DNA of 64,000 bases from Pseudonocardia benzenivorans CB1190 (lineage in GTDB: Bacteria; Actinomycetota; Actinomycetes; Mycobacteriales; Pseudonocardiaceae). Of this stretch, positions 15,888 through 63,741 are shown piece by piece; within the stretch, counting starts at the first letter, position 1; each line of letters starts with the position of its first letter. The notes under the pieces were generated by a model. It did not search any database. It was not told where the DNA came from and saw nothing but the letters and a program-made list of their open reading frames with translations. The stretch is from NCBI RefSeq assembly GCF_000196675.2, contig NC_015312.1, forward strand, positions 744,001-808,000. The letters are read 5' to 3'. Position numbers and translations under genes: made by a program.

Positions 15888-15942
15888 GACGCCGGTCCCG
15901 ACCGGCCGAACGTACCTCCCCGTGGGCCGAGCGGCGCGCGGT

Positions 15943-18250: not shown

Positions 18251-19510
18251 TCATGCCCGCTCGGTGGGCGATGCGTACTCCGGGCTGGCCCCGTGCCGGG
18301 CCTCGCGGCTCGCGGATCCGCCGTACCAGTCGAGGCAGAGGACGGTGGCGTCGTCGCGCAGGGCGCCGCCGGTGATCCGCAGCACCGCCGCACCGAGCGC
18401 GTGCACGACCTCGCGCGGGTGCAGGTGGGCGGTGTCGCGCAGCGTGGCGTGGAAGTCCAGCTCCGCGGCGTGCCGTTCGAGCATCCCGTCGGTGACGAAC
18501 ACGATCCGGTCCCCGGGTTCGAGCGGGAGCGGCTGCACCCGGAACGGCCTACCCGGCTCGAGACCGAACGGGATGTCGACGGCCAGCTCGACCTCCTCGA
18601 CCCGGCCCCCGCGCAGCCGCAGGGGTCTCGGATGGCCGGCGTTGACGATGGCGGCGGTCCTGCGGCCCAGGTCGATCCGCACGACCTGACCGGTGACGAA
18701 CCAGCCGGCCGAGGAGTACGCCGCGAGATCGTCGTTCGCGCGGACGACCTGGGAGGCCAGGTCCATCCCGGCGCGCCGCGCGTTGCGCAGGGCACCGACG
18801 AGCACGGTGGCGAGCATCGCCGCCTGCACGTCGTGGCCCGCGGCGTCGGTGATCGACAGGTGCAGGGTCCCGCGATCGAACGCGTAGTCGAAGGTGTCAC
18901 CACCCACCGTGCTCGCGGGTTCGAGCCAGCCGGCGAGGGTGAACTGCCCCGCCTCGCAGGTGAAGGCGGCCGGCAGGAGCCGTCGCTGGATCTCGGCGGA
19001 CAACGACACGGGCGTGGTGCGTTGGCCCCACTCGAACAGGTCGGTGTAGCGCCGGTTGACGACGATCACGTGGCCGAGGAGGTGCCCGATCCCCGCGATG
19101 TCGGCCACCTGTCGCGGCGTCGGCGGGGCAGGCAGCACGAGGTCCATCGCGCCGATGACATCTCCGCGCACCGTCACCGGAGCCGTGACGCGCGCGCCGT
19201 CGCCGACCTCGCGGACGGCGACCTGCTGGGTGCGCAGCACCTCCTCGTACACCGTCCCGGGCAGCGGCACCGACTCCGCGTTCTCGGTGTCGTGCGTGCG
19301 CTCGCCGCGGGCGGGTGTCCGTCCGAGCCGGACGAGCATCCGGCCGCTGTAGTCCACGATCAGGAGTCCGACCTCGCGCGCGCCGAGCAGCGCCGCGAGC
19401 TCGTCGGCCGCGACGTCGATCGCGTCGACGGGTGCAGCCGTCTCGACGCGCTCCAGCAGCGTCTGCATGTCCGTGACCTGGACGCTCCCGTCGGGCATGG
19501 CCGTGAGCAT
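18251..19510 (-). CDS. GAF-SpoIIE (PP2C-type) serine phosphatase
   Basis: 419 residues. A GAF-like sensor domain lies at about 30-165 (VGLLIVDYSGRML; VRGDVIGAMDLVLP), and an RsbU/SpoIIE phosphatase domain at about 180-400 with the metal-binding motifs STVGGDTFDYAF, LSITDAAGHDVQAAM, NAGHPRPL, FVTDGMLERH and DDATVLCLDW. These enzymes dephosphorylate anti-sigma-factor antagonists in partner-switching control, here perhaps linking redox sensing to stress transcription. Its start (ATG 19510, alternative ATG 19498) is divergent from the first universal stress gene with a DosR-like box between them. Confidence 0.88.
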   Translation of the reverse strand: MLTAMPDGSVQVTDMQTLLERVETAAPVDAIDVAADELAALLGAREVGLLIVDYSGRMLVRLGRTPARGERTHDTENAESVPLPGTVYEEVLRTQQVAVREVGDGARVTAPVTVRGDVIGAMDLVLPAPPTPRQVADIAGIGHLLGHVIVVNRRYTDLFEWGQRTTPVSLSAEIQRRLLPAAFTCEAGQFTLAGWLEPASTVGGDTFDYAFDRGTLHLSITDAAGHDVQAAMLATVLVGALRNARRAGMDLASQVVRANDDLAAYSSAGWFVTGQVVRIDLGRRTAAIVNAGHPRPLRLRGGRVEEVELAVDIPFGLEPGRPFRVQPLPLEPGDRIVFVTDGMLERHAAELDFHATLRDTAHLHPREVVHALGAAVLRITGGALRDDATVLCLDWYGGSASREARHGASPEYASPTERA

Positions 19511-19565: not shown

Positions 19566-19579
19566 GGGACCTTGGTCCC
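19566..19579. promoter_or_regulatory. DosR-like box A (GGGACCTTGGTCCC)
   Basis: Perfect 14-bp dyad matching the core of the mycobacterial DosR box (GGGACT-WW-AGTCCC pattern). 88 bp before the USP start at 19668 and 55 bp before the phosphatase start at 19510. Identical, in reverse complement, to box J before the DosR-like gene. Confidence 0.8.
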
Positions 19580-19667
19580 GGAACCGCCCGACGACGGCCT
19601 CTGTGCCTGCGGGCGGGTCGCGAGGACGCTGGAAGGACCGGAGCAGGCGTCGAGGAGGAGTTGTCGA

Positions 19668-20552
19668 ATGTCCAGCGCGCCCCGTCCCCTCCCCGTCGTC
19701 GTCGGTGTCGACGAGTCCGCGTCCGCGCGCGACGCCCTGCACTGGGCGGCCGAGCTCGCGGCGGCGATCGGGGCACCGCTCGTGCTGCTGCACGCGCAGC
19801 TCCACGGCTCGGCGGACCTGGCATCCGCGCCGCTCCCGCCCTACATGCGAGAACTGGTCGCGGACGCCGAGCGCTGCGGCGTGGCGCGGGCGTCGGTGGA
19901 GATCGTCCACGGCAACACCGTCGACCTGCTGCACACGCGCGCGCGCCACGCCCGCCTGCTCGTCGTGGGGAGCTACGGCGACGGTGCCTGGTCGGGAACG
20001 CTGGTGGGGCACATCGCGCTCGGCCTCGCGGGGCGGGTGGGCTGCCCGGTCGCCGTGGTCCGGGGCACGTCGCCGGGAGTCCCGCCCGCGCGTGGCGGCC
20101 CGGTCGTCGCGGCGCTCGAGGATCTCGGGACCGGGCCGGGCGTCCTCGACACCGCACTGCTGCTCGCCCGGGCGTCCGGGGCGTCGGTCCTCGTCGTGCA
20201 CTGCGCACCCGGCCCGACGTCGTCGGGAACGAGCTCGGCGGACGACGACGCGGCTCGACGGCTCGTGGACCGTGGTGTTCAGTGGATCACCGACCAGGCC
20301 CCCGAGGTCGCGGTGGCCGGTGAGGTGGTCGAGGACGGGGCCGGGCAGGGACTGGTGGACCTCGCGACGGCGGCGCGGGTGATCGTGGTGGGGCATCATC
20401 TGCAACCGGTGTCGACGCGGTCGACGATGCGCAGGCTCGTCGAGTTCGCGCCGTGCCCGATCGTCGCCGTTCCGGCGCAGCCGGCCGTGCACGCGGCGGT
20501 CGATTCCGACCGGGCGCCGGCCGACGTGGCGTCGGCGCCGCCGACGCGGTGA
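19668..20552 (+). CDS. Universal stress protein, tandem UspA
   Basis: 294 residues. First UspA domain is canonical: VVVGVDESASARDALHWAAELAAA split at VGVDES, ending in the nucleotide-binding run VGSYGDGAWSGTLVGH. The second (from about 140) is degenerate: PVVAALEDL replaces the VGVDGS strand and the binding loop reads VGHHLQPVSTRSTMR. ATG 19668 follows GAGGAGGAG. Cytosolic; family members bind ATP and act in stress and dormancy. Preceded by DosR-like box A. The stop overlaps the next gene (GTGA). Confidence 0.88.
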   Translation: MSSAPRPLPVVVGVDESASARDALHWAAELAAAIGAPLVLLHAQLHGSADLASAPLPPYMRELVADAERCGVARASVEIVHGNTVDLLHTRARHARLLVVGSYGDGAWSGTLVGHIALGLAGRVGCPVAVVRGTSPGVPPARGGPVVAALEDLGTGPGVLDTALLLARASGASVLVVHCAPGPTSSGTSSADDDAARRLVDRGVQWITDQAPEVAVAGEVVEDGAGQGLVDLATAARVIVVGHHLQPVSTRSTMRRLVEFAPCPIVAVPAQPAVHAAVDSDRAPADVASAPPTR

Positions 20553-20902
20553 CCCCGTCGCCCGACCGGCGTGACCCGGCCGTCGGGTCCGCCCGGTCGC
20601 GCCGGGACAGGCGTGCCGCAGCGCGGGAGAGCACGACGCACCCCTCCGAGGTCCGCGCCGAGGACGGCGTAGAGGTCGGCGCCGAGGACGGCGCCGAGGA
20701 CGACGACTGTGTGACCGCCGCGGTCGCGCGGCTCGCCGGTGAGTTCGCCGGCCGGGTCGACCGCGGGACGGTCCGGCGCACCGTCGTGAGCTGCCGGGCC
20801 GACCTCGACGCGGCGCCGCCGCCCGCGCTGCCCGAGCTCGTGGAACGGTTGGCCCGGCAGCGGTTGTTGCAGCTCGCGGGCCGGGCGTCCGAGTCGGGGT
20901 GA
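20549..20902 (+). CDS. Small acidic protein with three-helix-bundle dimerisation-like domain
   Basis: 117 residues, GTG at 20549 overlapping the stop of the universal stress gene (GTGA). The N-terminal 30 residues are Arg/Ser-rich; residues 33-52 are an acidic repeat (EDGVEVGAEDGAEDDD). The last 65 residues (VARLAGEFAGRVDRGTV; VVSCRADLDAAPPPALPELV; RLARQRLLQLA) resemble the short helical domain found in small actinobacterial proteins annotated as three-helix bundle dimerisation proteins. Role unknown; coupling to a stress protein suggests the same regulon. Confidence 0.6.
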   Translation: MTPSPDRRDPAVGSARSRRDRRAAARESTTHPSEVRAEDGVEVGAEDGAEDDDCVTAAVARLAGEFAGRVDRGTVRRTVVSCRADLDAAPPPALPELVERLARQRLLQLAGRASESG

Positions 20903-20937
20903 CGCGGACGTGACGCGGACGAGGCGCTGTCGGCGTC

Positions 20938-20951
20938 GGGACGAAAGGCCC
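20938..20951 (+). promoter_or_regulatory. DosR-like box B (GGGACGAAAGGCCC)
   Basis: One mismatch in the right half (GGCCC for GTCCC). 78 bp before the ATG at 21030. Confidence 0.6.
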
Positions 20952-21029
20952 CGTCCGGCGGGCCGATGCGCCGCAGTCGGCCGGCGGGCCCGTTTGTCAG
21001 GCTCGGCGGAGACCATCCGGGAGGTAGCA

Positions 21030-21959
21030 ATGGCCGGTTCCGAGGCGTCGCCGCACGGTGAACGATCGGTGGTGGTGGGCGTCGACGGCTCCCGCCACTG
21101 CCTCGACGCGGCCGTCTGGGCCGCGCGCGAGGCGGATCGGCGCGGCCTCCGACTGCGGCTGGTCGAGGTCGTGGAGTGGCAGGGCGTCGTGGCGGGTCAT
21201 CCGGAGGCGGTCCGGGCCGCCGCCCAGGTCCGGTCCGAGCTGCGTTCGATCGCCCGCCGCGACGTCGACCGGACCGCGGCCCACGTCGACGCGCTGCTCC
21301 CCGACATGCCCGTGTCGGCGGAGGTCTGCGACGGCGTGCCCGTCGACGTGCTCGGCGAGGCGTCCGAGCACGCCGCGCTGCTCGCGATCGGACGGCCCGT
21401 CGGCGGGTGGGGCGGGACGCTGCTGGGGGTCGCGCTGGCCGGCCGGTCGGCGTGCCCGCTCGTCTTCGTCAACGAACTGCCCGACGCCGGGCCCGACGAC
21501 CCGGTCGTGGTCGGGGTCGACGGTTCGCCGGACTCCGACGCGGCGCTCGAGGTCGCGTTCGCCGAGGCGCGCGACCGCAACGTGTACCTGCGGGTGCTGC
21601 ACGCCTGGAGCGACGTCCCCCTGGACGCCTGTGCCGATCCGGCCGTCGAGTTCGGCGACTTCGCCTCGGGCGTGCGGGCGTCGGTGTACGAGCGGGTCGC
21701 GCCGTACGCCCGGCGCCACCCCGACGTCGAGGTCCGGCACAGCACCACCCGCGACCATCCCGAGCGGGCGCTGCGCGAGCTCTCCGCGAACGCCCACCTC
21801 GTCGTGATCGGCGCCGGCGGCCGCTCCGGGGGGCTCGGGCTCGGGCAGGTGAGCCGGCGCATCGTGACGACGGCCCGGTGCCCGGTGATGGTCGTCGGGC
21901 CGCGCATGCGCGCGGGTGCGACCGCGCCGGCACCGGAGGACGTCCGCGTGGCGGACTGA
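21030..21959 (+). CDS. Universal stress protein, tandem UspA
   Basis: 309 residues, two UspA domains: [20 protein letters not shown] at the N-terminus and [20 protein letters not shown] near 158. The nucleotide-binding loop of domain 1 is altered (IGRPVGGWGGTLLGVALAG) while domain 2 keeps IGAGGRSGGLGLGQVS. ATG follows GGGAGGT (21019-21025). Own promoter expected from box B at -78. Likely ATP-binding cytosolic stress protein of the dormancy block. Confidence 0.88.
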   Translation: MAGSEASPHGERSVVVGVDGSRHCLDAAVWAAREADRRGLRLRLVEVVEWQGVVAGHPEAVRAAAQVRSELRSIARRDVDRTAAHVDALLPDMPVSAEVCDGVPVDVLGEASEHAALLAIGRPVGGWGGTLLGVALAGRSACPLVFVNELPDAGPDDPVVVGVDGSPDSDAALEVAFAEARDRNVYLRVLHAWSDVPLDACADPAVEFGDFASGVRASVYERVAPYARRHPDVEVRHSTTRDHPERALRELSANAHLVVIGAGGRSGGLGLGQVSRRIVTTARCPVMVVGPRMRAGATAPAPEDVRVAD

Positions 21960-22031
21960 GCGGGCCCCGGGCGACGGGCCGTAGGACCCGCTCCGGTCCC
22001 GGGGAAACCGAGTCCGGAGGCCCGTCGGCTC

Positions 22032-22045
22032 GGGCCTTTCGTCGG
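22032..22045 (+). promoter_or_regulatory. DosR-like box C (GGGCCTTTCGTCGG)
   Basis: Degenerate dyad, 83 bp before the CBS-protein ATG; close to box H (GGGACCTTCGTCGG on the minus strand). Confidence 0.5.
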
Positions 22046-22128
22046 CAGCCGCGGCGTTCGTCGCCGACCTAACGTCGAACCCAGGGGCCCCGGATCGGGC
22101 CGGGTCCGGTGCTCGGAGGAGGAGAGTC

Positions 22129-22743
22129 ATGCGTGTCCGTGAGGTGATGTCGGCACCCGCCGTGGTCGTCGCGTGCGACACCACCGTCAAGGAGGCGGCG
22201 CGGTTGCTGGACGAACACGGCTTCACCGCGTTGCCCGTCGTCGACGCCGCCGGACGGCTGGCCGGCATCGTCGGCGAGGCCGACGTCCTGGCCGACCGGC
22301 TCCCACCGGATCCCCGGCTGCCGGTCCCGGCCCGCCCCACGCGCACGATCGGCCGCCTCGTCGAGGACGTCATGCGGCGCGACGTGCTCACGGCCTCCCC
22401 GCGCGACGGCGCGAGCGACATGCTCGTCGTGATGCGCGAAGGGGGTCTGCGCTCGATCCCGGTCGTCGACGACGACGTCGTCGTCGGGGTCGTGACCTGG
22501 CGGGACCTCGTCCACGCGCTCGCCCGGCCGGACACCGAGATCGCAGCGGACGCCCACCGCCGGCTCGCGCTGCGGTTCGGGGACCGCTGGACGGTTCAGG
22601 TGGACGACGGGGACGTCCTGCTCACCTCGGACCGGCCCGCCGACGTGCCGGACCGCAGCCTCGCGATCCGGATCGCGGAGTCGGTGATCGGGACCACCCG
22701 CTGCAGGATCGCGGGCGACGTGCCGATGGCCGCCGCCACCTGA
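22129..22743 (+). CDS. CBS-domain pair protein with BON-like C-terminus
   Basis: 204 residues. CBS 1 at about 1-60 (VREVMSAPAVVVACDTTVKE; HGFTALPVVDAAGRLAGIVGEADVL) and CBS 2 at about 75-132 (VEDVMRRDVLTASP; GLRSIPVVDDDVVVGVVTWRDL), then a BON-like tail. The paired CBS module binds adenine nucleotides. It resembles hypoxic response protein 1 (Rv2626c) of the mycobacterial DosR regulon, though that protein lacks the tail. ATG follows GGAGGAG. Confidence 0.85.
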   Translation: MRVREVMSAPAVVVACDTTVKEAARLLDEHGFTALPVVDAAGRLAGIVGEADVLADRLPPDPRLPVPARPTRTIGRLVEDVMRRDVLTASPRDGASDMLVVMREGGLRSIPVVDDDVVVGVVTWRDLVHALARPDTEIAADAHRRLALRFGDRWTVQVDDGDVLLTSDRPADVPDRSLAIRIAESVIGTTRCRIAGDVPMAAAT

Positions 22744-22760
22744 GCGGCCCCGACCCTGAC

Positions 22761-22794
22761 GACGCCCGTGGCCCTTGCGAGGGCCACGGGCGTC
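22761..22794. terminator. Perfect 15-bp stem bidirectional terminator
   Basis: GACGCCCGTGGCCCT (22761-22775), loop TGCG, AGGGCCACGGGCGTC (22780-22794). Lies between the convergent CBS and universal stress genes. Confidence 0.75.
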
Positions 22795-22855
22795 GAGCAT
22801 TCGGGGCGCGCCCGGTGCGACGACGTGTGCCGGACCCGCCGCCGGGCGGGCCGTG

Positions 22856-23707
22856 TCAGGAGTCGGCGCGGCCCGCCGGGTCGTCCGCGGCGACGCCCGC
22901 GTCGTGCAGGCCCGCGTGGGGTGCGACGACGACCGGGCACGCGCTGTTCCAGACGAGCACCCGGCTGGTCGAGCCCAGCAGCACCCGGGCGACACGATGG
23001 TGCCCCCGGCTCCCGACCACCAGCATCCGCGCCCCCGCCGAGCGCGCGGCGAGGACGTCGGCCGCCGATCCCCTCACCCCCTCGATCTGGACGCCGACCT
23101 GCGGGAACCGTTTCGCCCACCGGTCGACCTCGTCGACCAGCTCGGTGGGGGGAAGGCCGTGCCGGTGCCCGTCGGCGTGGACGACCGTCAGCGGGTCGCC
23201 GTGCGCGTCGGCCTCGGCGAACGCGAGGGCGAGCGCGCCGGCGTCGGCGGCCGGGGAACCGATCCCGGCCAGGACACCGGCACCCCCGATCGCGTCGCTG
23301 CGCCGGATCACCGCGACCGGGCACGTGGCATGGCCGAGCACGTCCAGCGTCACCGAGCCGAGGACGGCGTCGGCGACGGTCTCGGAGACCAGGCCGGCGA
23401 CGAGGAGGCGGGCGCCCTCGGCCTCGTCGATCAACCCCGGCAGGGCGTGCTCGGTGCTGAGGCGGGTGCGGACCGGGAGTCCCCGACGCTCGTGCTCCGC
23501 GACCGACTTGGCGCGACCGAGGATCCCGTTCGCCCGGCGGATGCCGTGTTCGTCCACCGCGTACGGGGCGGCGTGGACGATCGTGAGCGACCCGTCGTGG
23601 GCAGCGGCCTCCTCGGCGGCCCAGGCGACCGCGTGCAGCGCGGTCGACGTGCCGTCCACCCCGACGGCGACGTCGGTTCCGCGATCGGATGCGTGCTGCT
23701 GGCTCAT
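22856..23707 (-). CDS. Universal stress protein, tandem UspA
   Basis: 283 residues with two UspA domains: VAVGVDGTSTALHAVAWAAE from residue 12 and a second from about 150 whose first strand reads VLAGIGSPAADAGALALAFA. Domain 2 retains the nucleotide loop VVGSRGHHRVARVLLGSTS; domain 1's is weak (VAGLVSETVADAVLGSVT). ATG 23707 follows AGGGAG. A half DosR-like box lies about 100 bp upstream. Confidence 0.87.
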   Translation of the reverse strand: MSQQHASDRGTDVAVGVDGTSTALHAVAWAAEEAAAHDGSLTIVHAAPYAVDEHGIRRANGILGRAKSVAEHERRGLPVRTRLSTEHALPGLIDEAEGARLLVAGLVSETVADAVLGSVTLDVLGHATCPVAVIRRSDAIGGAGVLAGIGSPAADAGALALAFAEADAHGDPLTVVHADGHRHGLPPTELVDEVDRWAKRFPQVGVQIEGVRGSAADVLAARSAGARMLVVGSRGHHRVARVLLGSTSRVLVWNSACPVVVAPHAGLHDAGVAADDPAGRADS

Positions 23708-23803
23708 GGCTGCTCCCTGGGTGCCGGGCCCGGCGGCGTCGACCGATCCGCGGCGCTCGTCGATGTGCGACCGACGGTGCGCCCAGACGGTGGCACGGCG
23801 CCC

Positions 23804-23817
23804 GAGGCGAAGGTCCC
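23804..23817 (-). promoter_or_regulatory. DosR-like half box D
   Basis: Minus strand GGGACCTTCGCCTC: intact left half and centre, weak right half. 96 bp before the start at 23707. Confidence 0.4.
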
Positions 23818-23924
23818 GGGTGGCCGGTCCCGTCGACTCGGGCCCGGCGGGCGTGCGGCGGGTGTGGGGCCCGTCCCGGCGCGCGTCGGCAGGCCGTCGG
23901 TGCGGGACGCGGGACGGCGGGTGC

Positions 23925-24470
23925 TCAGCCCGACGTGACGGTCCCGCCGTCGGTACGGCCGCGGGCGGGGGCGAACCGGGCGCCGAGCTCCTCGCCCCAC
24001 CGCCGGGCGCGGTCCAGCTCGTCGTCGAGCAGCGGCCCGGGGACGCCGTCGACCCAGAACGTCGTCGGGGAGCCGAGCATCCGGAACCCGAGACGCCGGA
24101 GCCGCGCCGCGGCCCGGTGCGCGGCCGAGCCCGGGACGCGCGGGCGCCGGACCCGCGTGTCGAACGTGGCGGCGGCCGTTCCCCGGGCCGGTGCGAGGCC
24201 CTCGATCCATTCGCGGATGCCGATCGCGTCGGCGTCGTAGTCGCGACCGGCCTGCTCCGCGCCGTCGCGGCGGGTCGTCGGTCGGCTCATGCCGAGCGCG
24301 TGGGTAGGGCCCCCGACGACCAGGAGGTCGAGGTCGTCCGGCAGCGTCGCCGGTGCCGCCGTGACCTCGACGAGGGTGGCGGGCAGCGCCCCCGTGAGAC
24401 CGCGGGCGACCGCCTCCGCGACCTGCCGGGTGTTGCCGAACACGGATTCGTAGACCACGAGCGCCTGCAC
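23925..24470 (-). CDS. Flavodoxin-domain protein
   Basis: 181 residues. The FMN phosphate loop is at the N-terminus (VVYESVFGNTRQVAEAVARG, matching the T/S-x-T/G-N-T pattern), followed by DLDLLVVGGPTHALGMSRP, the ring-binding loop. The C-terminal half is longer than in a minimal flavodoxin (TFDTRVRRPR; AARLRRLGFRML). GTG 24470 follows GAGGAGG. Likely cytosolic electron carrier or FMN-dependent reductase, suited to low-oxygen redox metabolism; perfect DosR-like box E lies upstream. Confidence 0.85.
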   Translation of the reverse strand: MQALVVYESVFGNTRQVAEAVARGLTGALPATLVEVTAAPATLPDDLDLLVVGGPTHALGMSRPTTRRDGAEQAGRDYDADAIGIREWIEGLAPARGTAAATFDTRVRRPRVPGSAAHRAAARLRRLGFRMLGSPTTFWVDGVPGPLLDDELDRARRWGEELGARFAPARGRTDGGTVTSG

Positions 24471-24579
24471 GGCTGTCGCCTCCTCGGCTCGTCGGCCGGG
24501 CGGGTCCCGGCCGGACGAGGGACACCGACGATGCTGCGCGACGGCGACATCTGCCACGGCCGCCCGGCCCGCCACCGGC

Positions 24580-24593
24580 GGGACCAGCGTCCC
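24580..24593 (-). promoter_or_regulatory. DosR-like box E (GGGACCAGCGTCCC)
   Basis: Both half sites perfect, with centre CAGC. 109 bp before the flavodoxin start; also on the upstream side of the divergent Rv1733c-like gene. Confidence 0.7.
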
Positions 24594-24634
24594 GGGTCCC
24601 CGGTGGACGAACCGGGACCTCCGGGAGCCGGTGA

Positions 24635-24648
24635 CGGACCGTTGGCCC
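24635..24648 (+). promoter_or_regulatory. DosR-like box F (CGGACCGTTGGCCC)
   Basis: Degenerate, one mismatch per half. 101 bp before the ATG at 24750. Confidence 0.45.
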
Positions 24649-24749
24649 TAGGCCGGGGGCGTACCGATGCGGTGTGCTCGCCGGTGAACCGTCCGCGGCC
24701 GCCGGGGGAGCCGGGCTCAGCGGTCGCCGAGAGCCCTCGGGAGGACGTC

Positions 24750-25343
24750 ATGCGCACGGACGAGCAGCCCGAGCGCCGGGCCCGTCGGCCGCGGCGCCTG
24801 CCGCGGCGCCGCAGCGACCGGGTGGAGGCGCTGACGACGTGGGTGCTCTGCGGGCTCGTCGCCGCGACCCTGGTGGCCACGGCACTCGTCGGCGGCTGGG
24901 TGCACGCCTTCGCCTCCGACAGGATCCGTGCCGAGCAGAGCGACCGTCGGCCGGTCCCGGCGGTCGCGGTTGCCGACGCGCCGGTCGTTCCGGGGGACGG
25001 CGGCGTCGGACCGACGTACGGCACCGTCCGGTGGACCGCCCCCGACGGAACCGAGCGCGCCGGGTCCGCGCAGGTTCCGCCGCTGACGAAGGCGGGGGGT
25101 GCCGTCACGGTCTGGACCGACGACAGGGGCGACGTCGTGGCGCCTCCACTGGGTTCGGAGTTCCCCCTGGTCATGACCGCGACGAGCGTCGTGTTCACCC
25201 TCCTGGCCGGGTTCGTCCTGATCGTGTTCGCGGTGCTGGGCGAGCGCCGGTTGCTCGACCGGCTGCGGGCGGCGGAATGGGGCGCCGGCTGGCGCCGGGT
25301 CGAGCCGGTCTGGAGCGGCCGTGAGGACTCGGGACGGCGGTAG
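24750..25343 (+). CDS. Rv1733c-like two-helix membrane protein
   Basis: 197 residues. A strongly basic cytosolic N-terminus (RRARRPRRLPRRRSDRVE) precedes TM1 (about 27-52, TTWVLCGLVAATLVATALVG). An extracytoplasmic loop of about 85 residues follows, containing VRWTAPDGTERAGSA and VTVWTDDRGD, then TM2 (about 141-164, FTLLAGFVLIVFAVLG) and a basic tail. This is the layout of Rv1733c, a DosR-regulon membrane protein of M. tuberculosis whose function is unknown. Its position inside this block supports the assignment. Confidence 0.82.
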   Translation: MRTDEQPERRARRPRRLPRRRSDRVEALTTWVLCGLVAATLVATALVGGWVHAFASDRIRAEQSDRRPVPAVAVADAPVVPGDGGVGPTYGTVRWTAPDGTERAGSAQVPPLTKAGGAVTVWTDDRGDVVAPPLGSEFPLVMTATSVVFTLLAGFVLIVFAVLGERRLLDRLRAAEWGAGWRRVEPVWSGREDSGRR

Positions 25344-25351
25344 GGCCCGGG

Positions 25352-26329
25352 TCAGTCCTCGACCGTCGTGAGGACGTCGGACACGGGCCGGCGCGGCGTG
25401 CGCGGCAGCTCGCCCGACGGCGGCCAGCCGACGCGCAGGACGAGCTGCGGGACCGAGGTGCCGCCGAGGACGTCGTCGCGCAGCGCGAGGCGGGTGCGGG
25501 TGACCTCCATCGGGGTGCTGAGCGGGCACGAGGCGAGACCCTGCACGACCGCGCGCAGCGAGACGGCGGAGAGCGCCTCCCCGGCGCGCAGCCACGACAG
25601 GGGGTCGTCGGAGGACGTCGCGATGATCAGCAGCTGCGCGCCGTCGTCGACGTCGGGGTACCGCTCCTCCAGCACGCCGGGGGTGAAGTGGCGTACGGCC
25701 GGACCGGCGGCGCCGGGATCGGCGGGCAGGTTCGCCGCGGGCACCCCGTCGGGCCCGACGAGTCCCCCGCTCCACATCGCCAGCTCCGTGCTGTAGCCGG
25801 GGAGCGACTGCTGCGCGAGCCCGGCGTCGCGGATCGCCCGCAGCACGGCAGCGTGGTCGGCCGGCTCGACGGGTGTCAGCCGGGCACCGTTCGCAGCCGC
25901 GGCTGCGACCAGCTCGTCCAGGAACGCGGGCGGCACCGGCCACGTGCTGAACCGGCGGCGGTCGCTGCGCCGCACGGGGATCGCCGAGGCCAGGCCGATG
26001 TCGGTCTCGGTGTCCGGGCGTCCGTCCGCGCGCAGCTCGACGGCGGCGAGATGGTCGCCGTCGGCGGGGTTGGGCAGCCGGTGCACGACGGCGTGCCGAC
26101 CCGCGGCGACCAGCGCCACGCGCAGGTGGTGCAGTGCCGCGCCGCAGCTCATCACGAGGTCGCGGCCGTCGGGGTCGGTGACCTGCAACCACCGGCCGAG
26201 GTCCGCGTGCAGGTGCAGGCTCGCCGGCCCGACGAGCCAGCGCCACGGCTGGCTGTTGTGCACCGACGGTGCCATGCAGGCGAGGCCGACGGCCGCCCGC
26301 ACGGTCGCGGCGTCACGGGTGTCGAGCAT
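25352..26329 (-). CDS. Acg-type nitroreductase-family protein
   Basis: 325 residues. The start MLDTRDAATVRAAVGLACMAPSVHNSQPW contains the family's APSVHNSQPWRW motif (split here), and the C-terminus WPPSGELPRTPRRPVSDVL is also typical. Acg (Rv2032) and its relatives Rv3127 and Rv3131 are DosR-regulon flavin-fold proteins that bind FMN and may sequester it rather than reduce nitro groups. ATG 26329 follows GAAGGAG. Only 56 bp separates it from the universal stress gene upstream, and no DosR-like box lies between, so the two are probably one transcript. Confidence 0.87.
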   Translation of the reverse strand: MLDTRDAATVRAAVGLACMAPSVHNSQPWRWLVGPASLHLHADLGRWLQVTDPDGRDLVMSCGAALHHLRVALVAAGRHAVVHRLPNPADGDHLAAVELRADGRPDTETDIGLASAIPVRRSDRRRFSTWPVPPAFLDELVAAAAANGARLTPVEPADHAAVLRAIRDAGLAQQSLPGYSTELAMWSGGLVGPDGVPAANLPADPGAAGPAVRHFTPGVLEERYPDVDDGAQLLIIATSSDDPLSWLRAGEALSAVSLRAVVQGLASCPLSTPMEVTRTRLALRDDVLGGTSVPQLVLRVGWPPSGELPRTPRRPVSDVLTTVED

Positions 26330-26385
26330 GGTCGAACTCCTTCGATCGAGGGCGGCCGTGCGGCCGCGATGGGGCAGCGGCACTG

Positions 26386-27294
26386 TCACGACGCCGCGTC
26401 GGCGGTGCCGGGTCCCGTGCGCTCCCGGCCGCCGAGCGGGGTGGCCGCGAACAGCAGCGGGCACGCGCTCGCGGTGAGCAGGGCCCGTCCGACCGTCCCG
26501 ACGCCCCCGTGCCGGCCGCCGCCGACGACGACCAGGGCGGCCCCGGACGACCTCAGGGCGAGGGCCGTCGCGGGCTCCTCCTGCACCGCATCGGCGGTGA
26601 CACGCACGGACGGGTAGGGGACGGACCAGGCCGCCAACTGGTCGTCGACGTCGTCGGGGACGCGTGGGCGCGGACCGTGACCGGCGTGCACCACGGTGAG
26701 CGGCAGGTCGTGCGCCGCGGCGGCACCGAACGCCGCGGCGAGGACCGCGGTGTCGGCCGTCGTGCCGTCGACGCCCGCGATCACGGGACCGTCGGGGCCC
26801 ACCGGGCCGTCGGGGCTCGCCAGGACGACCACGACCGGGCACGACGTGCGGCCGACCAGGTCCGACGGGCCCGGTCCGCGGGCCGCACCCAGCACGAGGA
26901 GCCGGGCGTCCTCGGCGACGTCCAGCAGGCCGGCGACGGGTTCGTCGTCGACGCGGCGGACCCCGACGACGAGCGAGGGCTGCCGCCGCCGGGCGACGCC
27001 GCGCGCGTGCTCCAGGACGCCGCCCGGGTGCCGGCCGGCGCCGACGCCGAGATCGTCGACCGCACCGAGGACCACGAGCCCGCACCCGCGGGCCGCCGCC
27101 TCGTCCGCCGCCCAGGCGACCGCTCCGAACGCCGTCGCGCTGTCGTCGACGGCGACGACGACCGGGGCACCGACGACCGGGGCACCGACGACCGGGGCAC
27201 CGACGACCGGAGAAACACCGGCCGGGGCGACGAGGTCGGCCGGCTCGGCGGCACCCGCGAGCGCCATGGCCGCCCCGGGTCGTGGCTCGTTCAT
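26386..27294 (-). CDS. Universal stress protein, tandem UspA, with repeat N-terminus
   Basis: 302 residues. The first 45 residues are an Ala/Pro/Val extension holding a GAPVV pentapeptide repeated three to four times, then two UspA domains (VVVAVDDSATAFGAVAWAAD; VIAGVDGTTADTAVLAAAFG). Nucleotide loops are partly altered (LGAARGPGPSDLVG; VGGGRHGGVGTVGR). ATG 27294 follows GGGAG; ATG 27267 (MALAG) is an alternative. Box G lies 62 bp upstream. The repeat extension is not usual for the family. Confidence 0.85.
   Translation of the reverse strand: MNEPRPGAAMALAGAAEPADLVAPAGVSPVVGAPVVGAPVVGAPVVVAVDDSATAFGAVAWAADEAAARGCGLVVLGAVDDLGVGAGRHPGGVLEHARGVARRRQPSLVVGVRRVDDEPVAGLLDVAEDARLLVLGAARGPGPSDLVGRTSCPVVVVLASPDGPVGPDGPVIAGVDGTTADTAVLAAAFGAAAAHDLPLTVVHAGHGPRPRVPDDVDDQLAAWSVPYPSVRVTADAVQEEPATALALRSSGAALVVVGGGRHGGVGTVGRALLTASACPLLFAATPLGGRERTGPGTADAAS
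27156..27210 (-). repeat. 15-bp tandem repeat in a universal stress gene
   Basis: Unit CGACGACCGGGGCAC, 3.7 exact copies, coding for GAPVV on the minus strand. Multiples of 15 keep frame, so copy number could vary without inactivating the gene. Confidence 0.85.
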
Positions 27295-27356
27295 GTCCGT
27301 CTCCCGACGTCTGGTGGGCATGTTCGACGGTGCGTCGAAAATGGTGGACGGCGCGC

Positions 27357-27370
27357 GGGCCGAACGTCCC
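27357..27370 (-). promoter_or_regulatory. DosR-like box G (GGGCCGAACGTCCC)
   Basis: One mismatch (C for A) in the left half. 62 bp before the universal stress start at 27294. Confidence 0.6.
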
Positions 27371-27416
27371 GGGCCCGTGGACCGGTGGGCCCGCGTCCCC
27401 GCCGGGCCGCCCCGGG

Positions 27417-28424
27417 TCAGGGCCGGTCGGGTCCGTCGTCGCTGCCGAGGACGTCCTCGACCGGTCGTCGTGGGGTCGCGGCCACCGGCCAGCCGTGGCC
27501 GATCCGCAGGACGACCTGCGGCGGGCGCGACCCGCTGATCAGCCGGCGCATCCGGTCGCGGGCCTCGGGCACCTCGATCAGCTGCGACAGGAACGACACC
27601 GCCAACCCGTGCACGGTGGCCGTCAGCAGGACGCGTTGGAGTGCCTCGCCCGCCCGGATCTCCTCGCGCGGACCCTCTCCGTGCACGCTCAGCACGGCGA
27701 TGAGGGGTTCGTCCTCGTAGACGCGGTCGCCCGGCGCGGTGCCACCGCTGAAGTCGCGCAGGACCCAGGTCGAGTTGGGCGGCGGCAACGGGCCGCCCGC
27801 CCACGCCGGCACTCCGTCCGGCCGGTCGGCGGTGTGGCCGGTCCAGGCCTCCAGTTCGGCCGCGAACGCGGGGTCCGCGACCTGCTTCTCGTGGGCCCGG
27901 CGGGCGAGATCGCTCAGCTCCCAACGGGTCTCGGGGTCGGTGACGAGATCGAGCCACGCGCCCTCCTCGACGGCCGCGCGGCGCAGCTCGTACCGCGCGA
28001 CCGTCGACACCTCGACGTCGGCGAACGGGTTGCGGTTGGTGCGCCGGCGCGGCACGGCGTCGAGCAGCTGCAGCATCCGCGGGCCGGCGGGGCGGTCGCC
28101 GCTGCGCCGCACGGAGGCGATCAGGTCCGGGCGGTCCCGGTCCGGGAGGATGCTCACCAGCGGCCGGATCCCGGCGCCGAGCAACGCCAGCCGAAGGGTG
28201 AAAAGCGCTGCGCCGCAAGCGATTCGCAGTTCGCGACCGTCCGGGTCCGCGACGCGCAGCTGCCGGTCGCGGTCGGCGTGCAGCTCGATCGCGTCGGGCG
28301 TCGTCCGGAACCGCCACGGCTGGCTGTTGTGCAGCGACGGCGCCATGCCTGCCGTGCTCAGCGCGTCGCGCACCTGGGTCCCGGACAGCCCGAGCGCTCC
28401 CGCGGTCTCGATCATCATGCCCAC
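27417..28424 (-). CDS. Acg-type nitroreductase-family protein
   Basis: 335 residues, paralogue of 25352-26329. Motifs APSLHNSQPWRF near residue 28 and the C-terminal WPVAATPRRPVEDVLG; the middle includes RRRTNRNPFADVEVS and the long lid region typical of Acg proteins. Start GTG 28424 or ATG 28418; neither has a strong ribosome site. Divergent from the DosS-type kinase with box H between, as expected if both answer to the same regulator. Flavin-binding is family knowledge; enzymatic role unproven. Confidence 0.86.
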   Translation of the reverse strand: MGMMIETAGALGLSGTQVRDALSTAGMAPSLHNSQPWRFRTTPDAIELHADRDRQLRVADPDGRELRIACGAALFTLRLALLGAGIRPLVSILPDRDRPDLIASVRRSGDRPAGPRMLQLLDAVPRRRTNRNPFADVEVSTVARYELRRAAVEEGAWLDLVTDPETRWELSDLARRAHEKQVADPAFAAELEAWTGHTADRPDGVPAWAGGPLPPPNSTWVLRDFSGGTAPGDRVYEDEPLIAVLSVHGEGPREEIRAGEALQRVLLTATVHGLAVSFLSQLIEVPEARDRMRRLISGSRPPQVVLRIGHGWPVAATPRRPVEDVLGSDDGPDRP

Positions 28425-28495
28425 CGTCGTCGAGGCGGACGGGCGTCGTCCGCCGATCGGGCCCAGCCTGCGACCGCGGTCGCGCGCACGGACAC

Positions 28496-28509
28496 CCGAC
28501 GAAGGTCCC
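28496..28509 (-). promoter_or_regulatory. DosR-like box H (minus strand GGGACCTTCGTCGG)
   Basis: Intact left half and centre, right half GTCGG. 71 bp before the nitroreductase start and 79 bp before the kinase start, so it can serve both. Confidence 0.6.
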
Positions 28510-28588
28510 GCCGAGGGGGGTCTTCCAGCGGGGGCGGCCGGGATTCCGACCCGTGCCGCGGCGCGCCGGGCCGTGTCACCGTTCGGCG

Positions 28589-30232
28589 ATGAGGTACGAC
28601 ATCGGCGGCACGGGCACGATCACGTCCGACGGCGCTCGCCTCGACGTGGACCGTGCTCGTCTGGTCGAGGCCGCGCTGGCCGTCGCGTCCGGCTCGGAGC
28701 TCGAGGCGACGCTGCACCGGGTCGTCGAGGCCGCGACCGCGCTGGTGGACGCCCGGTACGGCGCGCTCGGTGTCCTCGGGGCCGACGGCCGGGTCGTGCG
28801 CGTCGTCGAGGTCGGGTCCGGCGACCGCGACCGGATCTGGGACCGTAATCCTGGAGCCACCCCTGTCGCACCGCCCGCGGCGCGGACGTTCCTCGGCGTC
28901 CCGATCCGGGCCGGGGACGTGGTCTTCGGCAACCTCTGGCTGACCGCGCAGGACGCCTTCACCGCCGCCGACGAACGCCTCGTCCAGGCATTGGCCGCGG
29001 CCGCGGGCGTCGCGGTGCACAACGCCGTCCTCCTCGAACGCGCGCGGACGCGCGAGCGCTGGCTCGAGGCGCTCGGCGACGTCCGCGGTGAGGTCCTCGG
29101 TGGCGCGACGACCGCCGAGGTGCTCACGCTCGTCGCGACCCGCACCGTCGAGCTGACCGCGTCCACGTCGGCCGTCGTGCTGCTCGGGCCCGACGACGAC
29201 GGCCGCTACCGCGCGGTCGCGTCCGCCGGCGCGCCGCCGGACGCCCCGTCCGTGATGCCGGGTGTGCTCGACGAGGTGACCGAGAGCCGCGGACCGGTGC
29301 TGGGCGCCCGGCCGCCTGCGGGCGCGGGCGATCCCGCCGGGCCGTGGCTCGCGGTGCCCATGCTGGCGGGCGAGCGGGTCGAAGGGGTCCTGCTCGCCGT
29401 CCGCCCGGCCGGTGCCGACGCGTTCGTGCCGGCCGAGGTGCCGCTGCTGACGTCGTTCGCCGAGCAGGCCGTGCTCGCGCTCGACATCGCCGAGAAGGCC
29501 CGTGCCCAGCGCCGTCTCGACGTCCTCGCGGACCGTGAGCGGATCGCGCGCGAGGTGCACGATCGCGTCATCCAGCGGCTGTTCGCGACGGGGCTGCAGC
29601 TGCAGAGCGCGTTGCGGCGGACCACCGACGACGACGTCGCCGGCCGGGTCCGGCGCGCCGTCGACCAGCTCGACCGGACGGTCCGCGACATCCGCGCGTC
29701 CGTGTTCGACCCGCAGCCCGACGACGGCGACCCCGGCCTGAGCCGTGCGCTGCTGGACCTCGTCGCCAGGGCCGGTGCGGGTTCGGGGATCCGGGTCGCC
29801 CTGCACACCGACGGGCCCGTCGACACCGTGGTGGGGCCTGACCTGGTCCCGCACGTCCTGGCCGTCGCGCGGGAGGCCGTCGCCAACGCCGTCCGGCACT
29901 CGGGCGCCCGCCTGGTCACGTTGACCGTCCGGGCCGGCGCGGACCTCGTGGTCCGCGTCGTGGACGACGGCATGGGCATCCGTCCGGGCGCGGCGGGCGA
30001 CGGACTGGCCGACATCGTCGCCCGGGCACGCGACCTGGGCGGAACGGCATCGGTGGAGCGCAGGCTCGGCGGTGGGACGCGCATCGTCTGGCGGGTACCG
30101 CTCGACGACGATCTCGACGGGGATCCCGGCGGCGAGCACAGCGACGTCCCCGCGGGTCCGGCCCCCGTCGAGGAGGGCGGGACCTCGGCCGCTGCGGGAC
30201 GGGCCGAAGGACCTGCGCCGGCGGGTCACTGA
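28589..30232 (+). CDS. DosS/DevS-type sensor histidine kinase (GAF-GAF-HisKA_3-HATPase)
   Basis: 547 residues, no membrane helix, so cytosolic. GAF-A at about 21-150 ([33 protein letters not shown]), GAF-B at about 170-300, dimerisation/phosphoacceptor helix with His324 ([13 protein letters not shown]), ATPase motifs near 420-510 ([36 protein letters not shown]). Alignment from memory with M. tuberculosis DosS/DosT shows GAF-A is about 30 residues short between GVLG and RTFLGVP, the stretch carrying the haem-ligand histidine; no His lies between residues 44 and 143. It may thus sense through GAF-B or differently. Start ATG 28589; GTG 28553 also possible. Confidence 0.88.
30201..30214 (+). promoter_or_regulatory. 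DosR-like box I (GGGCCGAAGGACCT)
   Basis: Degenerate dyad inside the 3' end of the kinase gene, 80 bp before the ATG at 30295. Confidence 0.4.
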
Positions 30233-30294
30233 GCCGCTGCCGCGCCCCGCCGCGGACGGCCATCGTCGTGAGCGGGGACGGAGCGGGAGGGACG

Positions 30295-31209
30295 ATGGAC
30301 ATCCACATCGGATCGGTGGTCGTCGGGATCGACGGGTCCGCGCACGCACTCGCCGCCACCCGGTGGGCCGCGGTGGAGGCGTGCCGGCGTGGGCTGCCGT
30401 TGCGCCTGGTCTCCGCGGTCGGCTGGGCGACCTGGTCGCCGATCGGCCTGCCCGCACTCGGCGAGGAGTACGAGCGGGGCGTCCTCCTCGAGACGGCGCA
30501 CGCGATGGTCGACGCCGCCGCCGACGCCGCGACCGCGACCGTGCCGGGCGTCGAGGTGCAGCGCGAGGTCCGTGGCGGCGTGCCGGCCCGGGTGCTCGTC
30601 GAGGAGTCCGCCGCGGCCGCGCTGCTCGTCGTCGGCAACCGGGGCAGTGGCGGCTTCACCGGGCTCCTGCTCGGGTCGGTCGGTGTGACCGTTGCGGCGC
30701 ATGCCCATTGCCCCGTCGTCGTCGTTCGCGGGGACGCCGCCCGGCCCGTGCGCCCCGACGGACCGGTGGTCGTGGGTGTGGGGGAGGAGGCCGAGGCCGA
30801 GGCGGCGATCGCGTTCGCGTTCGACGAGGCCGCCCGCCGCGGGGTGCCGCTCGTCGCCGTCCACTCCTGGATCGAGACGGTCGTCGACCCGTACCTGGTC
30901 CCGTACGTCGACTGGGAGTCCGTCGCGCTCGAGGAACGCCGGGTCCTGACCGACGCGCTGGCGCCCTGGACCGGCAAGTACCCGGGTGTCGAGGTGCGCG
31001 AGGTCGTCGTCCGTGACGGCGCGGCCCGCGCACTGCTGTCGGCGGCCGCGGGCGCGGACCTCGTCGTCGTCGGGTCCCGGGGCTACGGCGCGGCCAGGGG
31101 GCTGCTGCTGGGCTCGGTCAGCCAGGCGATGCTGCAGCACGCGCCGTGCCCGGTGGCCGTGGTGCGCAGCCGCACCGTGGACGCGGCCGCCCTCCTGGAG
31201 CAGCCGTGA
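30295..31209 (+). CDS. Universal stress protein, tandem UspA
   Basis: 304 residues, the most canonical of the six. Domain 1 [20 protein letters not shown] with nucleotide loop [18 protein letters not shown]; domain 2 [20 protein letters not shown] with [21 protein letters not shown] 30295 follows GGGAGGG (30286-30292); the in-frame GTG at 30268 is less well placed. Likely ATP-binding. Its stop overlaps the next universal stress gene (GTGA), so the two are coupled; the kinase gene ends 62 bp upstream. Confidence 0.9.
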
Positions 31210-32051
31210 CGCACCCGAACGGGACGTCCACACGGCCCTGCGTCGTCGTGGGCGTCGACGGGTCGGCCGCCGCGTCGGACGCCGTCCGCTGGGCCGCGGC
31301 GGACGCGGCCCTGCGCGGGCTGCCGCTGCGGCTGGTCGCGGTGGCGCGGTGGCCCGCGCGCCGTCGTGCGCCGTCGGCGGACAGGTTGTTCGACGGGTGC
31401 GCCGCCGAGCAGCTGGCGGCGGCCGCCGCCCTCGTGCGTTCGGTGGCGCCGACCGTTCCGGTCACCCGGGCCGCCGGCCGCGGCCCGACGGCGGCGGTGC
31501 TGTCCGCGGCAGGCCGCGACGCCGAGCTCGTCGTGCTCGGTTCCCGCGGCCGGGGGCCCGTCACCGGGGCGCTGCTGGGTTCCGTGGGCCGCACGCTCGC
31601 GGAGACCGGGCCGTGTCCCGTCGTCGTGGTGCACGAGCGCGGGTGGTGGGAGGCGTTGCGCGCCGACGGTGATCCGGTCGTCGTCGGTGTCGGGCACCTG
31701 GCCGGCGCGGCGCAGGCGGTGCGTTTCGCGTTCGACGAGGCCGAGCGGCGCGCCGCCGCGCTGCACGTCGTGCGGGTGGTCCGCACGGCCCGGCCCGACG
31801 ACCGGGCCGCCCTCGACGGCCTGCTGGCCGACGAGACCCGGCGCCGTCCCTCGGTGGACGTCGTTCCGCGCGTCGTCGAGGGCGACCCGGTCGACGTCCT
31901 GACCCGGTTGTCGGCGACCGCCCAGCTCGTGGTGCTCGGAACCCGGGTGCGGCGCCGTCCGTGGTCGCCACGCGGGCACGTCCACCGCGCGCTGCTGCGC
32001 CACGCCCGCTGCCCGACGGTCGTCGTGCGCAGCCGGGACGGACGCGCCTGA
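31206..32051 (+). CDS. Universal stress protein, tandem UspA
   Basis: 281 residues, GTG start overlapping the previous stop. Domain 1 [20 protein letters not shown] with loop [18 protein letters not shown]; domain 2 starts [20 protein letters not shown] and is shortened, with loop [20 protein letters not shown] lacking the usual glycines. Second gene of a stress-protein pair behind the DosS-type kinase. Confidence 0.88.
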
Positions 32052-32088
32052 CCGTGCCCGTGCGCCGCGTCGTCGGGCGACCCGGCGG

Positions 32089-32733
32089 CTACTGGCCGGC
32101 GCGGCGTCGTTCGGCGTAGACGGCGGCCTCGGTGCGGCGGGAGAAGCCGAGCTTGTGCAGCAGTGAGGACACGTAGTTCTTGACGGTTTTCTCGGCGAGG
32201 AACAGTTCGGCGCCGATCTGTTTGTTGGTCAGGCCGTCGGCGACGAGGTCGAGGATGCGTCGTTCCTGGGGGGAGAGGCCGGCGTAGCGGGGGTCTTCGG
32301 TGTCCTCGCCGCGGCGGAGGCGTTCGAGGACGGAGGCGGTGGCTTTGGGGTCGAGGAGTGAGCCGCCGGCGGCGACGGTGCGGACGGCGCCGATGAGGTC
32401 GGTGCCGGCGACTTGTTTGAGCAGGTAGCCGGAGGCGCCGGCCATGATCGCGCCGAAGAGGGCTTCGTCGTCGGAGAAGGAGGTGAGCATGAGGCAGGCG
32501 GGTGGTGGGGAGGTGGCGGAGCGGACGTCGCGGCAGACGGCGACGCCTTCGCCGTCGGGGAGGCGGACGTCGAGGATGGCGACGTCGGGGCGGACGGCGG
32601 GGATGCGGGCGAGGGCTTGGGCGGCGGTGGCGGCTTCGCCGACGATCTGGATGTCGTCCTCGGTCTCGAGGAGTTGGGCGATGCCGCGTCGGACGATCTC
32701 GTGGTCGTCGAGCAGGAACACCGAGATCGTCAC
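32089..32733 (-). CDS. DosR/DevR-type response regulator (NarL/LuxR family)
   Basis: 214 residues. Receiver domain 1-120 with acidic pocket LLDDHE, phosphoacceptor Asp55 (AILDVRLPDG), LTS near 83 and Lys near 105 (GYLLKQ). LuxR helix-turn-helix at about 150-205 (LSPQERRILDLVADGLTNKQ); its recognition helix AEKTVKNYVS is identical to that of M. tuberculosis DosR as I recall it, which explains the DosR-like boxes. GTG 32733 has AGGAGG seven bases upstream. Box J lies 81 bp upstream (autoregulation). Codon use is unlike its neighbours: C-ending codons, GAA and AAA predominate, suggesting separate ancestry. Confidence 0.93.
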   Translation of the reverse strand: MTISVFLLDDHEIVRRGIAQLLETEDDIQIVGEAATAAQALARIPAVRPDVAILDVRLPDGEGVAVCRDVRSATSPPPACLMLTSFSDDEALFGAIMAGASGYLLKQVAGTDLIGAVRTVAAGGSLLDPKATASVLERLRRGEDTEDPRYAGLSPQERRILDLVADGLTNKQIGAELFLAEKTVKNYVSSLLHKLGFSRRTEAAVYAERRRAGQ

Positions 32734-32814
32734 CGGGGGCCTCCTGGGGTGCCGTGCCCTCGACACTAACCCCCGTTCGTCCCCCGGGGCACCGACCCGA
32801 CGACCTCACGTCGC

Positions 32815-32828
32815 GGGACCAAGGTCCC
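32815..32828. promoter_or_regulatory. DosR-like box J (GGGACCAAGGTCCC)
   Basis: Perfect 14-bp dyad, reverse complement of box A. 81 bp before the response-regulator start and 53 bp before the TetR start. Confidence 0.8.
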
Positions 32829-32838
32829 TGACTGTTCG

Positions 32839-32852
32839 ACAACACTTGTTGT
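32839..32852 (+). promoter_or_regulatory. TetR-type operator 1 (ACAACA-CT-TGTTGT)
   Basis: Perfect 6-bp arms, ending 29 bp before the TetR start; overlaps a candidate -35 (TTGTTG). Confidence 0.6.
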
Positions 32853-32859
32853 GGATGAC

Positions 32860-32873
32860 ACTACAGCTGTAGT
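32860..32873 (+). promoter_or_regulatory. TetR-type operator 2 (ACTACAGCTGTAGT)
   Basis: Perfect 14-bp palindrome centred 15 bp before the GTG, overlapping a candidate -10 (TGTAGT, 32868-32873 region). 21 bp centre to centre from operator 1, two helical turns. Confidence 0.7.
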
Positions 32874-44195: not shown

Positions 44196-44264
44196 ACCGC
44201 TCGCGTTCCCGGACGGCCGTCGTGACGCCCCGGGGACCATCGTCTCGTGCCTGAAGGGGACATC

Positions 44265-63377: not shown

Positions 63378-63741
63378 CCCCCGCCCGGGGCAGCCGGAGC
63401 GGCACCGGTCACGGCACGGATCGCGGCCCCTCGGCCGACGTCGGGCCGGCCGGGTCGACACCGGGTCAGGTCCTGCCGCGTCGTCGTCGACGGGGGTGCC
63501 GCTGCGCCTGCTCACCCTGCTCACCGACGCGGACGCCGGGCCGACGGACCGGCTGCGGGAGCGCGCGTGCACGCTGACCGGTCGGCTCCCCTGAGACCAC
63601 CGCGCACACCGCTCGCCGATCAGCGGCCGAACGCCCGTTGGTTCTTCCCGTACGCGTCGAGGCCCATCGGGGGCCTTTTCCCGGGTCGAACGTCCCTTTC
63701 TGCTGGATCGAGCGGCGGGGCCGGGTCCATACTCACCGGGC
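63378..63741. other. Non-coding stretch, nothing recognised
   Basis: 364 bases between the DM13 remnant and the lipoprotein start. Open frames are short and Arg/Pro/Cys-rich without ribosome sites. The last 40 bases probably hold the lipoprotein promoter; CATACT near 63728 could be a -10 giving a very short leader. Confidence 0.4.

Follow-up and report, generated by a model that had tools for sequence, protein, structure and literature searches.

Is the stress-gene island in this part of a 7.44-Mb Pseudonocardia genome a regulon of the DosR/DevR type, and can its own sensor kinase still read oxygen? The window analysed here is a 64-kb stretch (C1:744001-808000) that contains a run of universal stress protein (USP) and nitroreductase genes, a DosS-like histidine kinase gene (28589..30232, plus strand) and a response regulator gene, here called dosR (32089..32733, minus strand). 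A first-pass annotation of the window had listed ten dyads of the form GGGAC-N4-GTCCC before these genes. Such boxes do exist here, more densely than chance allows, and related species have them too, at comparable distances from gene starts. They are of the kind by which Mycobacterium turns on its dormancy genes. Judged from sequence, the island is very probably a DosR/DevR-type regulon, in which predicted binding of the regulator at the conserved boxes would co-activate the units as well as the regulator's own gene. A GGG-M-C-N4-G-K-CCC box precedes the units, usually by about 80 bp, and the regulator gene has one as well. The finding is mostly of the ordinary DosR/OsdR kind; it is raised by a kinase that appears blind to heme and by a split between a boxed and an unboxed regulator gene, features whose function we infer.

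A motif from other genomes recovers the island boxes

A matrix was trained on 99 upstream regions, picked because their genes are homologous to those in the island or its sister clusters. They came from 20 loci of the genus, spread over 18 genomes other than the present one (G000), whose DNA was excluded. The palindromic fit gave [CA]GGG[CA]C[GC]WW[CG]G[GT]CCC[GT] and the unconstrained fit CGGG[AC]CCTTCG[GC]CCC[TG], the latter with the same CTT centre that the first-pass annotation had put into its consensus. The motif reached a log-likelihood of 297. Control fits, run with fewer restarts, gave 140 on 142 other upstream regions and 63 on dinucleotide-shuffled sequences. Sites of at least 10 bits were present in 67 of the 99 training regions versus 28 of the 142 regions of other genes at the same loci. 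The fitted site share of 0.94 was dropped as evidence because control fits gave 0.98-0.99.

When the palindromic matrix was scanned over the window, nine of the ten claimed sites fell within its top 15 (ranks 1, 3, 4, 6, 8, 10, 13, 14 and 15), which bears out their description as DosR-box-like; the motif itself is of the DosR/OsdR kind. The published consensus of Mycobacterium tuberculosis, TTSGGGACTWWAGTCCCSAA, has its two best places in the window at 19566 (16/20) and 20938 (15/20), both claimed sites, and 22032 and 32815 are among the six best. Twenty stretches spread over C1 served as controls, with 54,341 bp of upstream zone and 13 matches of at least 10 bits. The 2,302 bp of upstream zone in the island hold 10 such matches where the controls predict 0.59 (Poisson P ~9e-10), a density about 18 times that of the control zones. 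Expressed per kb, matches occur at 4.3 before starts in the island, and at 0.239 before starts and 0.091 in coding DNA in the controls. Three of the control upstream matches lie in a single stretch (L096, C1:5200000-5219999) with three USP genes, one GAPDH-like gene and one CBS gene (read from sequence) and boxes of 16.2, 16.8 and 13.0 bits; because this USP/CBS cluster is among the controls, the background is if anything too high. It is probably a fourth regulon cluster. The second, at 2.44-2.455 Mb (L044), contains USP and CBS genes and a second DosR gene and has 11 upstream matches of at least 10 bits in 3,310 bp, and the third, at 2.577-2.582 Mb (L045), with a kinase and a nitroreductase gene, has 4 in 2,416 bp.

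Box positions recur as well. Among the 67 upstream regions of relatives with a box of at least 10 bits, the median distance to the start is 83 bp (interquartile range 78.5-102). The best box of dosR lies 82 bp from the start here. Of 20 homologous copies in other genomes, 13 have theirs at 78-86 bp, two of these 13 boxes scoring only 9.0-9.1 bits, and three more have it at 64, 97 and 206 bp. Between the divergent genes for nitroreductase 2 and the kinase, a match of at least 9.8 bits was found at all 10 relative loci where the two were called adjacent, these loci belonging to the training set. From DNA outside the matrix training, that of genome G075 (L163), came a counterpart of the box ahead of USP5, with 10.7 bits and 82 bp ahead of the USP5 homologue. 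The range of about 55-110 bp proposed for the ten sites agrees with the 54-110 bp measured; the distance is not fixed, as had been claimed, and only clusters near 80 bp.

The regulator and its copies

The best solved relative of the island regulator is M. tuberculosis DevR/DosR (3c3w, E 7e-70; the next reaches 1e-40), and in the alignment with 3c3w the recognition helix AEKTVKNYVS is identical, as the first-pass annotation had noted. On this sequence evidence the protein is a DosR/DevR orthologue. A unit of 691 bp around dosR (32057..32747) recurs at 2.45 Mb (C1:2449474-2450164; L044:9475-10165) with 689 of 691 positions identical. One mismatch lies in the gene and one after it; the former is silent, since the two proteins are identical. 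The match stops 14 bp before the start codon and the box is therefore not part of the duplicate, and within 250 bp upstream of the second copy the best match reaches only 6.9 bits. The two regulator copies differ by 11.6 and 13.1% in the two compared relatives that have two, and at least against those two relatives the near-identity seen here is unusual; it presumably reflects recent copying or gene conversion. A third regulator copy (79%) lies at 4.15 Mb. C takes up 0.77 of the third codon positions in the regulator gene and 0.43-0.57 in its neighbours, a bias of the sort that foreign or highly expressed genes show.

The island kinase lacks the heme-ligand histidine

The alignment of the kinase's first GAF domain with DevS is broken in two: opposite 38 residues of DevS (chain positions 47-84) the island kinase has nine. 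Its heme-binding GAF domain is short by about 28 residues, and the heme-ligand histidine is missing as well. The gap falls around residues 79-98. That histidine has been shown as the ligand in DosS (His149), DosT and M. smegmatis DosS (PMC4082495). The feature by which a heme kinase is known, a GAF-A domain with the proximal histidine (His149 of DosS) in an HPxM stretch, was not found in the island kinase, which is DosS-like by sequence and, by this feature, would not be classed as a heme sensor. Because the histidine and the heme-holding segment are absent, it is likely unable to sense oxygen in the usual way. The first-pass annotation had missed this absence, together with the duplicate of the regulator gene and a box at 21976.

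Other parts of the protein are kept. It has a second GAF domain and a kinase core of HisKA_3 (PF07730), with the phospho-acceptor His, and HATPase (PF02518), and His324, Asn433, Asp459 and Gly461 are invariant in a 27-row alignment (A1). In the predicted model (mean pLDDT, the predicted local confidence score, 73) there is no confident structure at residues 79-97. A Foldseek search with this model returned no DosS/DosT GAF-A chain among the 50 rows listed, which were mostly phytochrome and phosphodiesterase structures; DosS was matched through its ATP-binding domain. A search of genome contigs aimed at named relatives of the island kinase gave six distant matches, at 27-33%.

Among the relatives compared, loss of the histidine is rare. 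It is kept in all 16 other family kinases compared (the second one of this genome and 15 from relatives), in 117 of the best 120 of 3,502 proteins above the search threshold and at 28 of 29 loci in a search of 62 genus genomes, about nine of the 29 overlapping the set of sixteen. The exceptions among the proteins are P0027, P0076 and P0001, the last being a slightly differing form of the window's own cluster; the exception among the loci is L140 of G075. A tree built from the sequence behind GAF-A places the window kinase with the G075/P0027 kinases (support 0.89), beside the heme-type P0004 (0.996), so that the loss may have happened once. P0076, a third kinase without the histidine, has a separate deletion and stands elsewhere in the tree; an assembly fault is possible there. 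G075 has the same gene order, with homologues of nitroreductase 2, the shortened kinase, USP5, USP6 and DosR, and a histidine-bearing kinase about 10 kb away. The reading frame of the shortened kinase is intact here, as it is in a variant with 99% identity and in a second species.

The second kinase of the present genome (C1:2577724-2579484) has a complete GAF-A with the histidine and its own box 95 bp upstream. Its GHPEM aligns with the HHPPM and YHPPM of two solved relatives, and its alignment with a DevS chain (E 3e-38) covers the whole GAF-A. By title, none of the literature matches listed concerned a heme-less DosS or DosR/DevR in Pseudonocardia.

Alternative explanations

Could the sites be chance dyads of a G+C-rich genome, of which the best-looking ones before starts were picked? 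The bare GGGAC-N4-GTCCC is compatible with this, as with up to two mismatches it occurs 86 times in the window versus a shuffle mean of 129, rarer than in shuffles and without enrichment. Genome-wide there are 23 perfect dyads, three of them in this island, versus 2 for the reversed control pattern, and 594 versus 281 with at most one mismatch; outside the island, 19 of 20 perfect dyads were placed (501306 was not), 15 of the 19 in coding DNA. The bare dyad is unspecific and uninformative as a test by itself, and was superseded by the matrix from other genomes. The check proposed in the first-pass annotation, whether the motif is as frequent in coding DNA, goes against the bare dyad but not against the full motif. 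For the set as a whole, chance is refuted by the recovery of nine of the ten sites with a matrix from other genomes and by the excess over the control upstream zones; the recurrence of positions before dosR and between nitroreductase 2 and the kinase also speaks against it. We find it hardly credible for the set; single weak sites such as 22032 and 24635 may be chance products. The reversed pattern is found 14 times in the genome, the strict form GGGNCNTTNGNCCC 35 times; ten of these 35 lie in three short clusters, with four of the ten in this island.

Several results nevertheless weigh against reading the island as a regulon of its own DosR. Outside the three clusters, 24 of 25 occurrences of GGGNCNTTNGNCCC were placed, 12 in coding DNA and 12 between genes, and nine of 15 control matches of at least 12 bits are in coding DNA. 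The 28 'other' upstream regions of relatives that reach 10 bits count on the same side, as do the four of 20 dosR copies of relatives with no box before them. Training orthologues were chosen by homology to the clusters and are not independent, and the counts of conserved position use training-set loci. By the M. tuberculosis consensus nothing stands out beyond 19566, 20938, 22032 and 32815, and 24635 and 30201 do no better than 567 places. By a matrix of 19 predicted OsdR sites of Streptomyces coelicolor the island is seen weakly: at least 8 bits are reached at 4 of 16 starts and at 22 of 346 controls (Mann-Whitney P 0.001), and the scores of several claimed sites are low or even negative. 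Finally, the genome has at least 51 matches to the regulator family, and another member could use such sites. Real boxes might then be read mainly by another NarL/LuxR-type regulator or by the 79% paralogue rather than by the island DosR. Yet the boxes cluster around two DosR genes, which encode an identical protein, and the heme-type kinase; the 2,626-bp upstream zone around the 4.15-Mb paralogue contains no match of at least 10 bits; and the motif is of the kind that goes with the recognition helix of the island protein. We regard this explanation as highly improbable. For the kinase, an unlikely but more serious alternative is that the shortened GAF-A still senses oxygen or redox, either because a different residue holds the heme or because it pairs with the heme-type kinase. 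The intact core and second GAF domain, and the open gene in two species, speak for retained sensing; the absent ligand histidine and preceding segment, and the want of confident structure in the model there, speak against it.

A model for the island

In the DosR/DevR-type regulon that we favour, the regulator at 32089-32733 would recognise near-palindromic boxes like CGGG[A/C]CCTTCG[G/T]CCC, mostly 54-110 bp before starts, and its phosphorylated form would bind them and activate transcription. The heme-type kinase at C1:2577724-2579484 likely reports oxygen, redox or nitric oxide, as DosS and DosT do. The island kinase would then likely serve as a second, oxygen-independent input, or act mainly as a phosphatase. 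The boxed dosR copy would be likely to give positive feedback, and the box-less copy a steady supply. Taken together, the picture of a heme-blind DosS that sits beside its target genes in a box-controlled island of at least two species, with a heme-bearing partner, an oxygen-independent second input to the classical hypoxia switch and two dosR genes of which one is boxed, seems to us to have about an even chance of being right.

The analysis carries the logic of DosR boxes over to Pseudonocardia, and the matrix is applicable to every genome of this genus. A genome with two sister kinases, only one of which has the pocket, amounts to a natural experiment on the role of heme in DosS; if the heme-blind kinase is active, oxygen would not be the sole way into the dormancy response.

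Boxes and genes of the island

Genes were taken from a simple codon-based caller, the starts of USP2 and USP4 were corrected by hand and products were checked with Pfam; ranks and bits below are those of the palindromic matrix from other genomes, scanned over the window. All ten sequences claimed in the first-pass annotation are present at their positions. Three (19566, 24580, 32815) have perfect arms, the first and last being mutual reverse complements as described; 22032 and 30201 miss three of the ten arm positions. Judged by position, 13 transcription units share the island boxes.

Box 1 (GGGACCTTGGTCCC, 19566..19579; rank 4, 15.2 bits) lies 89 bp from USP1 (19668..20552, plus strand; PF00582, as for all USPs here) and 56 bp from a divergent SpoIIE-type phosphatase gene (18251..19510, minus strand; PF07228). 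Box 2 (GGGACGAAAGGCCC, 20938..20951; rank 8) is 79 bp from USP2 (21030..21959, plus strand). Two sites precede the CBS-domain gene (22129..22743, plus strand; PF00571): box 3a (GGGCCGTAGGACCC, 21976..21989; rank 5, 14.4 bits, and rank 9 with the oriented matrix), which was absent from the first-pass annotation, at 140 bp, and box 3b (22032..22045; rank 77, 6.4 bits, and rank 34 oriented) at 84 bp, 56 bp from box 3a. As a box, the 22032 site does poorly by rank, although it has the usual distance and scores 14/20 against the M. tuberculosis consensus; the evidence is mixed, its standing doubtful, and 21976 is the better box for the CBS gene.

Further along, box 4 (23804..23817; rank 13) lies 97 bp from USP3 (22856..23707, minus strand), and box 5 (24580..24593; rank 10) 110 bp from a flavodoxin-like gene (23925..24470, minus strand; PF00258, 26.1 bits at a cut-off of 25). 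Box 6 (24635..24648; rank 14, but 52 by the oriented matrix) follows box 5 at a spacing of 55 bp and is 102 bp from a membrane-protein gene (24750..25343, plus strand) with no Pfam family and two apparent membrane segments (read from sequence), which we take to be Rv1733c-like. Box 7 (27357..27370; rank 3) lies 63 bp from USP4 (26386..27294, minus strand), which forms a unit with nitroreductase 1 (25352..26329, minus strand; PF00881); no box was found ahead of the latter, which begins 56 bp behind the same-strand USP4, in agreement with the operon that had been predicted. Nitroreductase 2 (27417..28418, minus strand; PF00881) and the kinase have box 8 (28496..28509; rank 15) in common, at 78 and 80 bp. 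Box 9 (30201..30214; rank 6), within the 3′ end of the kinase gene and with a weaker copy 22 bp off at 30179, lies 81 bp from USP5 (30295..31209, plus strand), which USP6 (31206..32051, plus strand) overlaps by 4 bp. Box 10 (GGGACCAAGGTCCC, 32815..32828; rank 1, 18.4 bits) is 82 bp from dosR (PF00072 and PF00196) and 54 bp from a TetR gene. The box-less genes, a small open reading frame at 20549, nitroreductase 1 and USP6, each lie close behind a boxed gene on the same strand.

Two palindromes, CAACACTTGTTG (32840-32851, with an imperfect centre) and ACTACAGCTGTAGT (32860-32873), stand in the interval from the dosR box to the TetR gene, as if they were the TetR repressor's own operators. The second-best box of the window (63683-63696, 17.6 bits) is intergenic near the right end, with no start called within 400 bp, and may belong to a gene beyond the window. 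Boxes also occur at 15903-15916 (13.1 bits), about 52 bp ahead of an adenosine-deaminase-like gene, and at 44233-44246 (12.4 bits), directly ahead of an acyl-CoA-dehydrogenase-like gene, both names being read from sequence.

Tandem boxes occur at 24580/24635, 30179/30201 and 21976/22032, with spacings of 55, 22 and 56 bp. In relatives the spacing is 22-23 bp in 12 of 43 pairs and near 35, 46, 57 or 68 bp in others; spacings of 62-64, 72-77 and 92-97 bp fall off the helical pattern, and the control set had 11 pairs. Phasing by helical turns is suggested by these figures, which are uncorrected for the relatedness of the loci.

Comparison with known DosR systems

The island resembles the DosS/DosT-DosR system of M. 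tuberculosis in its regulator, with the same recognition helix, in a near-palindromic GGGAC-type box and in two DosS-type kinases per genome; USP and nitroreductase genes, as here, are among the M. tuberculosis DosR targets. It differs in that the Pseudonocardia box has a CTTC/GAAG centre without the AT flanks of the M. tuberculosis consensus, in an island kinase without the heme histidine, in two regulator genes for an identical protein and in boxed clusters in at least four places.

The OsdR/OsdK system of Streptomyces coelicolor (PMC5069765), which the island resembles in gene content, is likewise a case of a DosR orthologue outside the mycobacteria with USP and nitroreductase genes nearby. 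The first four entries of its published table put boxes at -81, -100, -99 and -102; others range widely (PMC5069765). One site in that table, reading AGGGACCTTCGGCCCC, is like the island boxes, but the consensus AGGGCCGATCGGCCCT, whose fifth position is C and whose centre is GATC, is unlike them (PMC5069765). The weak fit of the S. coelicolor matrix speaks against an OsdR-like specificity of the island boxes. OsdK keeps 15 of the 18 oxygen-sensing residues of DosT according to PMC5069765, whereas the island kinase is without the heme histidine.

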